From the NCBI GenBank assembly GCA_025359265.1, contig JANYHB010000072.1, positions 1 to 64,000 of the forward strand: a stretch of 64,000 nucleotides of DNA, given 5' to 3'. The translations under genes and the position numbers were made by a program. Below are positions 6,847 to 11,819 of this stretch, in pieces; position 1 is the stretch's first letter; each line of letters opens with the position of its first letter. Below the pieces are notes generated by a model. The model worked only from the letters and a program-made list of their open reading frames with translations, had not been told where the DNA came from and searched no databases. Origin of the DNA: Hyphomicrobiales bacterium. GTDB taxonomy: Bacteria; Pseudomonadota; Alphaproteobacteria; Rhizobiales; Aestuariivirgaceae.

Positions 6847-7925
6847 GAACTTATCTTGACCATAATGCCACCAGCCCGCTGCGCCCAGCGGTGAAGGCAG
6901 CGATGCTTGCGGCCATGGAAATTGGCGGCAATGCCTCTTCCATTCACGCTGAGGGCAGGGCGGCACACAAGCTGATGGATGATGCGCGCGAGAAGCTGGC
7001 CTTTTGGCTGGGTTGCTTGCCGCAGATGATCGCCTTTACCAGTGGCGGAACCGAGGCCAATAATATGGCGCTGCGGGGGGTTGCGGTGGATCGCCTTTTG
7101 GTTTCGGCGATTGAACATCCCTCAGTGATGGCGGCGGCGAGAGCTTCAGGTAAAAAAGTTGAAATCATCCCCGTGGATCAATTTGGCCGCGTTGAAATGG
7201 CGGCGTTGGAGAAACTGCTGGTTGGCGGCAGGGCGCTGGTTTCGGTGATGATGGCCAACAATGAAACGGGTGTGATCCAGCCCATCTCTGAGATTGCGGG
7301 CCTGGTTCACGCCGCAGGTTCACTGCTGCATGTGGACGCCGTGCAAGGCGTTGGCAAGCGCCAGGTAAATTTTGGTTTGCTGGGCGTTGATCTGCTGACG
7401 GTGGCCGCGCATAAAGTGGGCGGGCCAACCGGCATCGGCGCTTTGATCATTCGCGATGGCCTGGTGGTTGAGCCATTGTTACACGGTGGTGGCCAAGAGC
7501 TGCGCCGCCGCGCTGGCACCGAAAACCTGATCAACATCGCCGGCTTTGCCGCCTTGGCTGATGTGCCGCAGCTTGATGCAAATGACGTGAACAACCGGCT
7601 TGAAGCCTCACTTGAGGGGGCAACGATATTCAGCGGCGGCGCTGCACGCCTTGGCAACACCACGTGTTTTGCGATCCGTGGGCTGAGTGCCGAAACCTTG
7701 CTGATGAAATATGATCTGGAAGGCATCGCGGTTTCATCTGGCTCAGCCTGTTCTTCCGGCAAAGTGGGGCCCAGCCACGTGTTGCAAGCCATGGGCGTGG
7801 CACCTGATCTGGCGCGCTCTGCCATTCGTATCTCTTCAGGGTGGAACACCACTGAAACCGACATTCAACATTTCATTTCAATCACTCAAAAATTCAGGGC
7901 GCGGGCTTCCGCGAAGGCAGCATAA
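6843..7925 (+). CDS. Cysteine desulfurase, NifS/IscS class
   Basis: This PLP enzyme takes sulfur from cysteine for cluster assembly. It has 360 residues from a GTG at 6843 that overlaps the iscR stop (GTGA); in-frame codons further upstream lie inside iscR and lack family similarity. Landmarks are '[12 protein letters not shown]' at the N-terminus, the PLP lysine Lys191 in '[12 protein letters not shown]', and the active-site Cys303 in '[17 protein letters not shown]', on the long loop typical of the NifS/IscS group. It is the first of two desulfurases in this operon; sufS is the second. Which one serves SufBCD cannot be told from sequence, although SufS is the expected partner. Confidence 0.93.
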
Positions 7926-9439
7926 TGGCTGATCAAGACACCATAAACCTCGTCAAAACCATTGAGGTTGATAAATATAAATATGGCTTCGAAACCGACA
8001 TCGAAAGCGAATACGCGCCCAAGGGTTTGAACGAAGATATCGTGCGCTTCATTTCAAACAAGAAGGGCGAACCCGCCTGGATGCTGGAGTGGCGGCTGGA
8101 AGCCTACCGCGTTTGGCAACAGATGGATGAACCCACGTGGGCCCGTGTGCACTATCCTAAAATTGATTTTCAGGATTTGTATTATTACGCGGCACCAAAA
8201 TCCATGTCGGCACCCAAGTCGCTTGACGAAATTGATCCCAAACTTTTGGAGACCTATGCCAAGCTGGGCATTCCGCTGAAGGAGCAGGAAATCCTTGCCG
8301 GTGTGCGCAAACAAGGCGAGAAGAGCAAGCTGGATGATGAAGGCAATGAGATCAACGAGTCTCGCGTGGCCGTTGATGCAGTGTTTGACTCCGTTTCGGT
8401 TGTCACCACCTTCAAGGATGAACTGGCCAAGGCTGGCGTGATCTTTTGTTCAATTTCTGAGGCGCTGCGTGAGCACCCGGAACTGGTGCGGAAATATCTG
8501 GGCAGTGTTGTGCCGCAGGGCGATAATTATTATGCCGCCCTCAACGCCGCGGTGTTTTCTGATGGCTCTTTCGTCTACGTGCCACCGGGTGTGCGCTGCC
8601 CGATGGAGCTTTCCACCTATTTCCGCATGAACGCCAAAAACACCGGGCAGTTTGAGCGCACCTTGATCATCGCAGACAAAGGTTCTTACGTGAGCTATCT
8701 CGAAGGCTGTACCGCACCCATGCGCGAGCAAAGCCAGCTGCACGCCGCCGTGGTGGAACTGATCGCGCATGATGATGCCGAAATCAAATACTCCACCGTG
8801 CAGAATTGGTATCCGGGTGATGCCGAAGGCAAAGGCGGCATTTATAATTTCGTGACCAAGCGCGGCGACTGCCGGGGCGACCGCTCCAAAATTTCATGGA
8901 CGCAAGTGGAAACCGGCTCGGCCATCACATGGAAATATCCGTCTTGCATTTTGCGTGGCGAAAGTTCGCGCGGCGAATTCTATTCCATCGCCATTTCCAA
9001 TGGCAGGCAGCAGGTGGACAGCGGCACCAAGATGATTCACCTGGGCAAGAATTCCTCCAGCCGCATCATCGCGAAAGGCATAGCCGCAGGCCGGAGTGAC
9101 AACACCTATCGCGGATTGGTGAGCGCCCACCGCAAAGCCACCAATGCCCGCAACTTCACGCAGTGTGACTCACTGTTGATCGGCGATCAATGCGGCGCGC
9201 ATACGGTGCCTTATATTGAGGCCAAGACTTCGACAGCGCAATTCGAACATGAGGCCACCACCTCCAAGATCAGTGATGACCAGATGTTCTACTGCATGTC
9301 GCGTGGCCTGTCGCAGGAGGAGTCTGTCGCGCTGATCGTCAACGGCTTCGTGCGCGACGTGCTGCAACAACTGCCGATGGAGTTTATGGCGGAGACACAG
9401 AAATTGATTGGGATTTCACTGGAGGGGAGTGTTGGATGA
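7925..9439 (+). CDS. sufB: Fe-S cluster assembly scaffold SufB
   Basis: SufB is the core scaffold subunit of the SufBC2D complex, on which [4Fe-4S] clusters are built in the cytosol. The 504-residue length and full-length similarity are typical: '[24 protein letters not shown]' region at the N-terminus, '[18 protein letters not shown]', 'YLEGCTAP', '[26 protein letters not shown]' region, and C-terminal '[18 protein letters not shown]'. The start ATG shares one base with the upstream stop (TAATG). The ribosome site would lie inside the desulfurase gene. Downstream is an unexpected gene (orf148) where sufC normally follows. Confidence 0.97.
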
Positions 9440-9882
9440 TTTTCCGTTTATTCAAGAAAAAACCAAACGAGATTGAACAGTTGCGAGACTTTGTTTCTCG
9501 ACTTTCTATTTTGCCTCCAGACAATTTGGGAATTGCAATTGCAACGATCGAGCATACCGCAAATACTTATTTTTATCGGGGGAACTTCTATACTCCGCAG
9601 GATGTACTAAAGAAAAATCCTGAAATTATTAAAGTGGGTTTAGACGAAGTGCGCCGACTTAAGATGGTCAGGCTTGAGATTATGTCGATCGCATGGATGG
9701 CTTGGGTTCATACATTTAGAGCAGTTGTCGATCCAAACTTGATGCCATTAGCCAAGAATATGTGGTCGGTCTTAGCTAAGGGTGCCCCGCACGCAAAAAA
9801 ACACGCAACTTCTCTTGTACCACTACTTGGGTTTGAGTTGGATGTTGATCAGCCAGACCGAATACCTGTCGGTTTCAGTTAA
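9436..9882 (+). CDS. Unknown 148-residue protein inserted between sufB and sufC
   Basis: No family is recognised. The protein begins [16 protein letters not shown], is mixed alpha in character, has a hydrophobic-aromatic stretch near residues 80-95 ('[12 protein letters not shown]'), and has no signal peptide, cysteine or obvious active-site motif. Its ATG overlaps the sufB stop by ATGA, and it ends 18 bases before sufC, so it is placed as a translated operon member. Base use is foreign: hand counts of three 60-base lines (9481-9660) give 72 of 180 G+C, about 40%, against 40 of 60 in sampled lines of both sufB and sufC. Codons such as CGA, TCT and ATA-rich or TTT-rich runs are unlike the neighbours. 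Recent acquisition is likely; function is unknown. Confidence 0.75.
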
Positions 9883-9900
9883 TAGAGCAAGGGCAATCAA

Positions 9901-10656
9901 ATGCTTAAAATCGAAAACCTCCACGTCAAACTCTCGGACGAATCTCGCGAAATTATTAAAGGGCTTTCACTCACCGTGAAGCCCGGCGAAGTTCATGCCA
10001 TCATGGGGCCGAATGGTTCTGGCAAATCCACGCTGTCCTATGTGCTCTCTGGCCGCGAGGGCTATGAGGTCACCGAAGGCAGCGTCACCTATAACGGCAA
10101 AGACGTGTTGGCGATGGAACCGAACGAACGCGCCGCCAAGGGCATGTTCCTCGCGTTCCAATACCCGATTGAAATTCCCGGCGTGCAGACCATGCAGTTT
10201 CTGCGGGTGGCGCTCAATGCCCAGCGCAAGGCACGCGGCGAGAAGGAATTGGCCATTCCGGAGTTCATGCGCTTTGTGAAAGATCGCGCGGCGAAACTGA
10301 ACATTTCCCAAGACATGTTAAAGCGGCCAGTGAATGTGGGCTTCTCGGGCGGTGAGAAAAAGCGCGCCGAGATTTTGCAAATGGCGGTGCTGGAGCCTTC
10401 GCTCTGCATTCTCGATGAAACTGATTCCGGCCTGGATATCGACGCGCTGAAAGTGGTGGCCGAAGGTGTCAACGCCCTGCGCTCTCCCCATCGCGCCATG
10501 ATCGTGATTACCCATTATCAACGCTTGCTCGACCATATTATTCCAGACGTGGTGCATGTGCTTTCCGGCGGCCGCATTGTGAAAACCGGTGGCAAGGAAC
10601 TGGCGCTGGAATTGGAAAAGAACGGCTATGCCGATTATGCGGAGAAAGCCGCGTGA
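9901..10656 (+). CDS. sufC: Suf complex ATPase SufC
   Basis: SufC is the ABC-type ATPase that binds SufB and SufD and drives the structural change needed for cluster assembly. It has 251 residues with the Walker A GPNGSGKST at 36-44, the signature 'FSGGEKKRAEI', Walker B 'CILDETDSGLDID', and the switch histidine in 'IVITHYQRLLD'. The long insertion and the 'GFSGGEKKR' variant are characteristic of SufC rather than transporter ATPases. A purine-rich stretch (GAGCAAGGG) lies ahead of the ATG, so initiation here does not depend on overlap with orf148. The stop overlaps the sufD start by GTGA. Confidence 0.97.
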   Translation: MLKIENLHVKLSDESREIIKGLSLTVKPGEVHAIMGPNGSGKSTLSYVLSGREGYEVTEGSVTYNGKDVLAMEPNERAAKGMFLAFQYPIEIPGVQTMQFLRVALNAQRKARGEKELAIPEFMRFVKDRAAKLNISQDMLKRPVNVGFSGGEKKRAEILQMAVLEPSLCILDETDSGLDIDALKVVAEGVNALRSPHRAMIVITHYQRLLDHIIPDVVHVLSGGRIVKTGGKELALELEKNGYADYAEKAA

Positions 10657-11819
10657 GCCAAGCGCTGCAACGCACCGCCGCTGAGCAAGCGCTGGGCATT
10701 TCATTGCCCCACCGCCGCATGGAAGACTGGCGCTGGACAGATTTGCGCGCCCGCATCTCCAAACCCTATGTGCCGCAGAACGTTGTAGCCGCAGCCCAAG
10801 ATGTTGAACGCCTGCTGGCATCTTCGCCCTTTGCCAGAGCCGCACGGGCGCGTGTTGTGTTTGTGAATGGCGTGCTGGACGAAGCCCATTCCAAACTCAC
10901 AGGTTTGGAAATTTCGAAATCATGTGCGGCCATTGCAATGCAAGACCCGGTTTTAGAAATGAACGCCAAACTGCAACCCCAAGGCGTCACTCTGAAATTC
11001 GTCGGCCAAGCCGAGTTGCTGGTTGAAATGATCCACATTTCTACCAACGCCAACGCTCGCGCCATGGGCTTGCACAACGCCATTGAAGTGGCTGCTGGCG
11101 CTTCGGCCTCCGTCATCGAGACTTTTCTGGGCGAGGGCGATTATGTGATGAACGCCGTCACCCAGGTTACGCTGGGCAAAGGCGCACATCTGGACCGCTT
11201 GAAACTGCAAAATGATGCAGCCGCTGCAACCCATCTGTCGCATGTGATCTATGATCTGGGCGAGAATGCGCGGCTGAATGACATCACCGTCACCATCGGG
11301 GCTGCCCTTACCCGGCAAAACGGAACCTGCACTTTCAATGGCGAAAACGCAGAGGCTAAAATCTCAGGTGCATATTTGCAGCGCAACAAGCAACATGTGG
11401 ATACGGCGCTGGTGATCAACCACGCTGTGCCCCACTGCACCAGCCGCGAGATGTTCAAATGCGTGATGGACGATCATGCCCGCGGCATTTTTCAGGGCAA
11501 AGTTGTGGTGGCCAAGCATGCGCAGAAAACCGATGGCAAGCAATCCAGCCACGCTTTGCTTCTGTCAGAAAACGCTGAATTTGATGCCAAGCCGGAATTG
11601 GAAATCTTTGCCGACGATGTGGTCTGCGGCCATGGCGCAACCGCCGGTGATTTGAATCACGACCATTTATTCTATCTCACATCGCGCGGCATTCCCGAAG
11701 CCGAAGCCAAGTCTCTGCTGATCGCCGCCTTTGTGGGCGAGGCCTTTGATCTGGTTGCCAATGATGATGTGCGCGATGCGCTGGTTGAATTGGCAGAAAA
11801 ATGGGTGACGGCGAAGTGA
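10653..11819 (+). CDS. sufD: Fe-S cluster assembly protein SufD
   Basis: SufD is the SufB paralogue that completes the SufBC2D scaffold and is linked to iron entry. The protein has 388 residues. The N-terminal helical part includes 'PHRRMEDWRWTDLR', and the beta-helix core ends in the shared SufB/SufD element 'FYLTSRGIPEAEAKSLLIAAFVGE' (residues about 340-365). The candidate functional residues in 'CTSREMFKCV' and 'VVCGHGATAGDLN' are present. The start is a GTG overlapping the sufC stop. The 3' end overlaps the most upstream start of sufS by 19 bases. Confidence 0.95.
   Translation: MSQALQRTAAEQALGISLPHRRMEDWRWTDLRARISKPYVPQNVVAAAQDVERLLASSPFARAARARVVFVNGVLDEAHSKLTGLEISKSCAAIAMQDPVLEMNAKLQPQGVTLKFVGQAELLVEMIHISTNANARAMGLHNAIEVAAGASASVIETFLGEGDYVMNAVTQVTLGKGAHLDRLKLQNDAAAATHLSHVIYDLGENARLNDITVTIGAALTRQNGTCTFNGENAEAKISGAYLQRNKQHVDTALVINHAVPHCTSREMFKCVMDDHARGIFQGKVVVAKHAQKTDGKQSSHALLLSENAEFDAKPELEIFADDVVCGHGATAGDLNHDHLFYLTSRGIPEAEAKSLLIAAFVGEAFDLVANDDVRDALVELAEKWVTAK

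Follow-up and report, generated by a model that had tools for sequence, protein, structure and literature searches.

Core operons are usually regarded as closed to foreign genes. Foreign or orphan genes can enter conserved operons and exploit the transcription they find there, and among phages the rex genes of lambda illustrate a related habit, being prophage accessory genes (morons, or lysogenic-conversion genes) that lie beside the CI repressor and are expressed in lysogeny. The closest described parallels to the present locus lie at the junction of sufB and sufC. In Muricauda olearia this position is occupied by momL, also a foreign-looking gene (encoding an AHL lactonase), at a location that its authors called unique; the available excerpts of that paper describe operon genes left intact and co-transcription with suf, and contain no statement of a recurring slot, while the phylum and the gene are both other than those considered here (PMC5484670). 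In Rhodobacter sphaeroides the position is held by RSP_0439, likewise an unrelated or unnamed ORF, within a co-transcribed operon and, in the excerpts available, as a single annotation only (PMC4618611; PMC6956336). A small ORF in this position has been published for Caulobacter crescentus too. Single cases have thus been published, and a description of the junction as a variable slot was not found in the open-access literature. What distinguishes the sufB-sufC junction from operon acquisition in general is that, in one genus, the gene it holds changes from nearly every species to the next, with the start codon most often placed on the upstream stop codon.

The window analysed here is the whole stretch of 64,000 nucleotides, in which an ORF at 9436-9882 separates sufB from sufC (Table 1). 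The original prediction of a 148-residue ORF at this position held good, the frame being intact and on the + strand, as did the proposed ATGA overlap of its start codon with the sufB stop. The 18 nt between its stop and the sufC start (9901) leave little room for the attC site of an integron-type cassette. A ribosome site for sufC had also been proposed and AAGGG is indeed present, but it is weak, with a duplex of -4.7 kcal/mol against -12.1 kcal/mol for the anti-Shine-Dalgarno duplex in the 22 nt before the ORF ATG.

Table 1. Features at and around the ORF between sufB and sufC in the window.
Feature	Positions	Strand	Description and basis
sufB, upstream neighbour	7925-9439	+	504 aa; ends SLEGSVG; Pfam SUFBD_core E 2.7e-78
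Shine-Dalgarno-like GGAGGGG	9421-9427	+	in last sufB codons, 8 nt 5' of ORF ATG; sequence
ATGA, ORF start codon on sufB stop	9436-9439	+	sequence
Cargo ORF	9436-9882	+	148 aa, intact; unnamed, mostly helical family with phage relatives
Family-core coding region	9691-9792	+	W90, H92, R95, W110, L113, G116; 10-member alignment
Weak sufC ribosome site AAGGG	9889-9893	+	sequence; duplex -4.7 kcal/mol
sufC, downstream neighbour	9901-10656	+	251 aa; ORF and Pfam
sufD, supplies control junction sufC-sufD	10653-11819	+	ORF and Pfam

The base composition of the ORF is unusual for the window. Its G+C of 0.421 and GC3 of 0.403, measured over the whole ORF, may be compared to a mean G+C of 0.548 (sd 0.016) and a GC3 of 0.616 for the 42 non-overlapping window ORFs of at least 200 aa, and its AT-richness is equalled by 1 of 1,272 sliding 447-nt windows along the 64 kb. 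The suggested check of codon adaptation, run against the same 42 ORFs, gave it the worst fit, none of them being poorer. Of the compositional figures first put forward, some 40% G+C for 9481-9660 was accurate (0.400) and about 67% for the flanking genes was wrong, sufB having 0.539 and sufC 0.553 (whole window 0.543); the contrast itself is real.

The ORF had been described as belonging to no known family and we agree, finding no match in Pfam, NCBIfam, PHROGs or PADLOC at loose thresholds. Its sequence had no relative in the PDB (best E 0.86), nor was one found in viral contigs or genome contigs, and three further family members, compared with the same viral and genome contigs, added no new locus. 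Among 99 other relatives a single-sequence search clearly matched one, G002 of the same genus (E 1.1e-10, 23% identity), whose copy lies on a contig other than that of its sufB and adjoins a HigBA-like pair as judged by reading of the sequence. Weak matches of the same search in G039 (E 0.029) and G081 (E 0.064) were regarded as fortuitous and set aside. Profile searches, with the window's genome counted each time, matched 7 and then 9 of 397 genomes sampled from the order, 5 of 385 from the class and 2 of 299 from the phylum, so that the family totals 13 different genomes including the window's, several of the matches being fragmentary or weak. Close homologues of the ORF were not found in these searches, family members being 17-28% identical to the window copy. 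In an alignment of ten members W90 and W110 are invariant and F19, G49, H92, R95, L113, P144 and G146 nearly so, G116 being less conserved than the other core columns. The window protein shares significant similarity, the W..(H)..R..W core and the C-terminal P.G with the family. The ten members yielded six weak, single-member matches to Pfam (E 0.022-0.14), and of the seven family proteins scanned against the known anti-phage defence models of PADLOC two gave weak partial matches only, to different models (E 0.0095 and 0.016).

These homologues also bear on whether the ORF is a gene at all. Among the 34 loci searched with it, matches were obtained only at the window's own locus and at the non-suf locus of G002, and the window's own genome is accordingly the only one of the 34 to have the ORF at sufB-sufC, as a non-coding frame or an assembly error might produce. 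Such an explanation is most improbable and mainly refuted by the homologues: the 148-codon frame stands in exact ATGA register, the G002 match is strong, the flanks are continuous in an assembly 99.94% complete, and the same arrangement recurs in two other genomes.

Relatives were also found among phages. Matches were obtained in 3 of 50,697 phage records (27.7% identity over 91%, E ~1e-8) and in 2 of 72,556 plasmid records, one of these with E 0.04. The relatives from Pseudomonas aeruginosa comprise three phages and a phage-like plasmid (27.7% identity, E 8e-9 to 3e-8); a Cupriavidus plasmid was matched through the family member of G499, and the P. aeruginosa phage protein, used as a query, retrieved five near-identical viral contigs. 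Neighbourhoods were examined in three of the four P. aeruginosa records. In BK061477 the family gene is directly behind a CI repressor, an assignment supported by PHROGs, and in CP124637 directly behind an S24-type repressor, while in PP003919 one hypothetical gene intervenes between it and a CI-like repressor; in each case it is on the same strand as the repressor. The arrangement thus resembles that of the lambda rex type, a small gene beside the repressor or one gene away. No sequence or fold relation to a named moron product was found, however, and the window copy sits in a housekeeping operon and has no phage neighbours. In each of the three Pseudomonas records examined (L122, L123 and L124) the family gene is followed by one for a 304-aa protein, that of L122 being phrog_4506, of unknown function; the two genes possibly form one lysogeny operon.

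Elsewhere, the G310 copy lies behind a phage internal virion protein, with a metallo-protease gene nearby that reads as ImmA/IrrE-type, and the truncated G337 copy adjoins a head-morphogenesis-like ORF with an integrase beyond. Inspection by eye of the surroundings of the G144, G739, G601 and G776 copies revealed no clear phage genes. The short G776 contig carries a tandem pair of distant family members (L140, 2221-3660), and the copy on a Pseudorhodobacter plasmid has alongside it what reads as a serine recombinase. To judge from these sequences, namely phages recorded from a single host species together with two neighbourhoods of prophage type, the family would be phage-borne at least in part, as a lysogeny-type accessory or 'moron' gene.

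Structure prediction added little to this picture. The best of five AlphaFold models of the window protein, made from three sequences, had a pLDDT of 71.3 and a pTM of 0.69, the other four having pLDDT values of 41-47; its predicted fold contains seven helices and two short strands. The model of the phage relative was all-helical and poor (pLDDT 60.3). With the predicted model Foldseek returned nothing convincing from the PDB (best E 0.64) or from viral structures (best E 1.2), and the best VIA-align Z of 6.0, to a designed protein, is within the chance range for helical models, so that no fold is assigned to the ORF.

Three genomes, each of a different family, have a family gene between sufB and sufC: the window's own, G192 from another family of the same order and G499 from another family of the same class. 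The three copies differ. The G192 protein has 43% identity to the prophage-like protein of G310 and the G499 protein 42% to that of the P. aeruginosa phages; for the window protein the highest identity to any other in that alignment is 27%. A tree that unites all three suf copies in a single clade is rejected (AU p 2.5e-5), which implies that the family entered sufB-sufC at least twice; a clade of the window and G499 copies is not rejected (AU p 0.115). The two other species of the G192 genus are without the gene, and the G192 homologue is the only one seen at this position in the order sample, rather than the series of orthologues of normal composition across the order that would have spoken against a foreign gene.

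This recurrence could suggest that the protein works with SUF, as an auxiliary factor or regulator of SufBC(D) that was drawn into the operon by a link to Fe-S assembly or iron stress, in line with the selected function in cluster assembly that was one of the two options originally offered. A rare family does appear at sufB-sufC in 3 of its 13 genomes, from different families, through at least two independent captures, and in the window the anatomy couples the ORF to sufB. We nevertheless consider such a role rather unlikely. The gene is absent from the sister species; ten of the 13 genomes with a family match carry a family gene outside sufB-sufC, and the members in phages, G310 and G337 have no suf neighbours. 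The protein has neither a Cys-rich motif nor a known SUF-related domain, Pfam giving no match, and the search of the 34 loci disclosed no conserved association with suf. Furthermore, some 46 clusters of cargo, dozens of them unrelated, share the slot, so that position alone says little about SUF function. A toxin-antitoxin pair is not indicated either, a single gene occupying the slot of the window and Pfam offering no toxin or antitoxin match.

The junction itself was compared across several sets of loci. Set A contained the window and 32 loci of its genus (33 of 34 genomes with a sufB match, the gap being measurable in 28), set B 21 of the 24 genomes in the G499 genus that had a sufB match (20 measurable), and set C the best 80 named loci listed, mostly Hyphomicrobiales (78 measurable). 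Set E was drawn from 142 genomes of the class, of which 89 had a sufB match; 80 of these were used, the window, G499, G486 and six genomes whose matches were cut or poor having been left out. Gaps of at least 250 bp between sufB and sufC were seen in 7/28 (A), 15/20 (B), 19/78 (C, best 80 listed) and 8/80 (E), compared to 0/26, 0/20, 0/76 and 1/76, respectively, between sufC and sufD of the same operons. Fisher tests of the one junction against the other gave p values of 0.010 (A), 8e-7 (B), 1e-6 (C, best 80 listed) and 0.034 (E), which are descriptive because the loci share kinship. At the same threshold sufD-sufS gave 0/25 (A), 0/20 (B), 2/73 (C, best 80 listed) and 1/74 (E), and iscS-sufB 0/32 (A), 0/21 (B) and 1/75 (C, best 80 listed), the 3/21 measurable in E coming from stretches too short upstream for comparison. 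The sufS-sufT junction gave 0/25 (A), 0/20 (B) and 0/71 (C, best 80 listed) but 39/70 in E, where sufE is taken as usually lying between.

The contrast is less exclusive under other thresholds. At 150 bp, iscS-sufB in set C (best 80 listed) is as open as sufB-sufC, 28/75 against 28/78, with 12/73 for sufD-sufS and 1/76 for sufC-sufD; in set E the figures are 14/80 for sufB-sufC against 4/76 for sufC-sufD. The sufT-sufA junction is also variable, gaps of at least 250 bp occurring in 4/24 (A), 0/20 (B) and 10/55 (C, best 80 listed), and those in A and C all reach at least 400 bp. The hotspot is, moreover, uneven across taxa, since most slots of the class sample are empty (53/80 sufB-sufC gaps of set E being below 50 bp).

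Within the genus of the window, 9/28 gaps are below 50 bp, 4/28 are of 50-149 bp and 15/28 are of at least 150 bp, 14 of these 15 having an ORF of at least 45 aa. The premise that sufB is followed directly by sufC is therefore wrong for this group. The recommended comparison of suf operons in close relatives showed contents that vary across the genus and an empty slot, with a 1-bp gap, in the sister species G033 (L227). Of the suggested very recent insertion, the comparison supports only an arrival younger than the split from G033 (79% DNA identity over iscS and sufB), a split that may itself be old. Slot states, assigned by hand, were placed on trees of iscS and sufB, two set A loci without a complete sufB being excluded. 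At least 16 changes of state are needed on the 31 rows of set A, a number as low in 14 of 200 shuffles, which indicates slight clustering, and at least 17 on the 21 rows of set B with their 16 states, a number as low in all 200 shuffles, which indicates none. In Alphaproteobacteria the space between sufB and sufC is a slot whose contents turn over.

Taking one ORF of at least 45 aa from each slot of at least 150 bp gave 66 cargo proteins, which fall into 46 clusters including 33 singletons, the number of clusters being approximate since some of the ORFs lie in repeats or overlap GIY-YIG in another frame and are likely spurious. Set A cargo includes a cupin, VOC-like and HIRAN-like proteins (Pfam matches just below cut-off), a phasin-like protein recognised by reading of the sequence and lacking a Pfam match, and, in several species, a probable membrane protein of 62 aa, with repeats or nothing elsewhere. 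In the G499 genus nearly every species has a gene of its own, the kinds comprising lipoprotein-like proteins, DUF1330, membrane proteins, toxin-antitoxin-like pairs, GIY-YIG and unknowns, where labels without a Pfam match again come from reading of the sequence. The Pfam cut-off was passed by 7 of the 30 cargo proteins scanned (DUF1330, ParE, two GIY-YIG, ABM, Cupin_2 and Tautomerase). Cargo genes are not AT-rich as a rule, several equalling or exceeding their own sufB in G+C. GIY-YIG-like ORFs occupy the slot in L080, L119, L166, L169 and L178, from Rhizobium and the G499 genus, some of them within repeat-like sequence; Pfam was applied to the L080 and L166 proteins, and these ORFs are possibly a mobile repeat element. 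Related small slot proteins were also noted in L289 and L295 (families f99 and f141), one having a MazG match below the Pfam cut-off.

Turnover of this kind raises the prospect that the ORF is a neutral passenger, useless to its host and kept until swapped or deleted because a nonsense or frameshift mutation in it would have polar effects on sufC. Rapid changes of slot content that do not follow the phylogeny, as in the G499 genus, would be expected of passengers, as would the apparent deletion remnants of the 62-aa cargo gene in L213, L223 and L226 (by reading of the sequence) and the unadapted codon use of the ORF. We think it unlikely all the same, as the intact ORF retains W90, H92, R95, W110, P144 and G146 at around 25% identity to its relatives; this indicates constraint somewhere in the history of the family, not necessarily in the lineage of the window.

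The end of sufB offers a likely reason for the hospitality of the slot. Among 214 loci, in which a few genomes are counted twice, 195 have the C-terminal sequence SLEGSVG, and its Glu-Gly codons yield a GAGG- or GAAGG-type Shine-Dalgarno sequence, so that a gene starting on the sufB stop could be translated at once. Across loci the 22 nt before the overlap position form an anti-Shine-Dalgarno duplex with a median of -7.8 kcal/mol, compared to a median of -3.0 kcal/mol for random 22-mers in sufB, 4.2% of which are as low. An NTGA start-stop overlap ends sufB in 42/65 occupied slots against 7/77 empty ones (p 2e-12), and 51/66 cargo ORFs start at -4 or -1, a fraction that leans high since the choice of ORF favoured such starts where present. 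In L188, L190, L193, L204 and L212, and for the toxin-like ORF of L195, the cargo stop also overlaps the sufC start (end +1).

Some slots contain partial copies of the flanking genes. In three genomes of the G499 genus, L137 (5722-5838), L194 and L199, the cargo is directly followed by a partial second sufC start of 117, 101 and 113 nt, respectively, which breaks off at the Walker-A codons or close to them. Beyond it come a toxin-antitoxin-like pair and then sufC, complete in L137 and L194 and running off the end of the stretch in L199. The pair is recognised as ParE by Pfam in L199 and by similarity or reading of the sequence in L137 and L194; one of the three pairs has no DNA match to the other two. 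In L200 (G827) a GIY-YIG element is followed by a second copy of 34 nt from the sufB 3' end (slot positions 569-602) and then by an 85-aa ORF. These copies may have been left by recombination with a foreign sufB-cargo-sufC segment. Among 103 slots compared, that of the window gave no match indicative of such scars. A match of L209 to the supposed sufC start of L232 was dropped, the position being inside the L232 cargo, and replacement of sufC in the sister G033 was likewise discarded, the low sufC identity going with an ambiguous (X), shortened stretch. Nor did gene histories differ clearly across the slot in 25 and 20 loci: distances for the sufB 3' half and sufC correlate at 0.654 in the genus of the window (25 loci), on a par with other neighbours, and at 0.206 in the G499 genus (20 loci), where this is the lowest value among five pairs by a small margin, the others lying at 0.301-0.388.

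Taken as a whole, the ORF at 9436-9882 is probably a horizontally acquired, single-gene cargo of a phage-type family, coupled to sufB in a slot of rapid turnover. The idea that a foreign gene has been retained in frame and tied to the operon gains support from the composition, the phage relatives, the empty slot of G033 and the combination of ATGA with a strong Shine-Dalgarno sequence. Directly observed are the anatomy, the composition, the phage relatives, the empty sister slot, the turnover and the link between occupancy and an NTGA overlap; the horizontal arrival, the expression and coupling within the cell and the job of the protein are inferred. Ribosomes finishing sufB would meet the Shine-Dalgarno sequence in the conserved last codons (LEGSVG) and restart at the overlapping ATGA, so that the cargo would need no promoter or ribosome site of its own; it would be made together with the SUF proteins, its translation stopping 18 nt before sufC. 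A lysogenic-conversion or anti-phage accessory function may be put forward for it, as a guess.

More speculatively, sufB-sufC might be a general plug-in bay, in which the LEGSVG ribosome site would express any frame placed on the sufB stop while selection on sufC guarded that frame until its replacement by recombination. If sufC is translated by ribosomes that have first passed through the cargo, the purifying selection acting on sufC would protect the cargo frame; replacement would proceed by recombination of sufB-cargo-sufC DNA, the partial copies of sufC in three genomes and of sufB in a fourth being its scars.

The larger point is the slot itself, beyond the ORF at 9436-9882. In the main Fe-S operon of Alphaproteobacteria one junction differs in nearly every species of at least one genus, and the majority of the scanned cargo genes belong to no known family. 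Should coupling protect the frame of the cargo, the junction would offer orphan and phage genes a simple route to expression and retention, and the slot would represent a natural collection of small genes worth screening.
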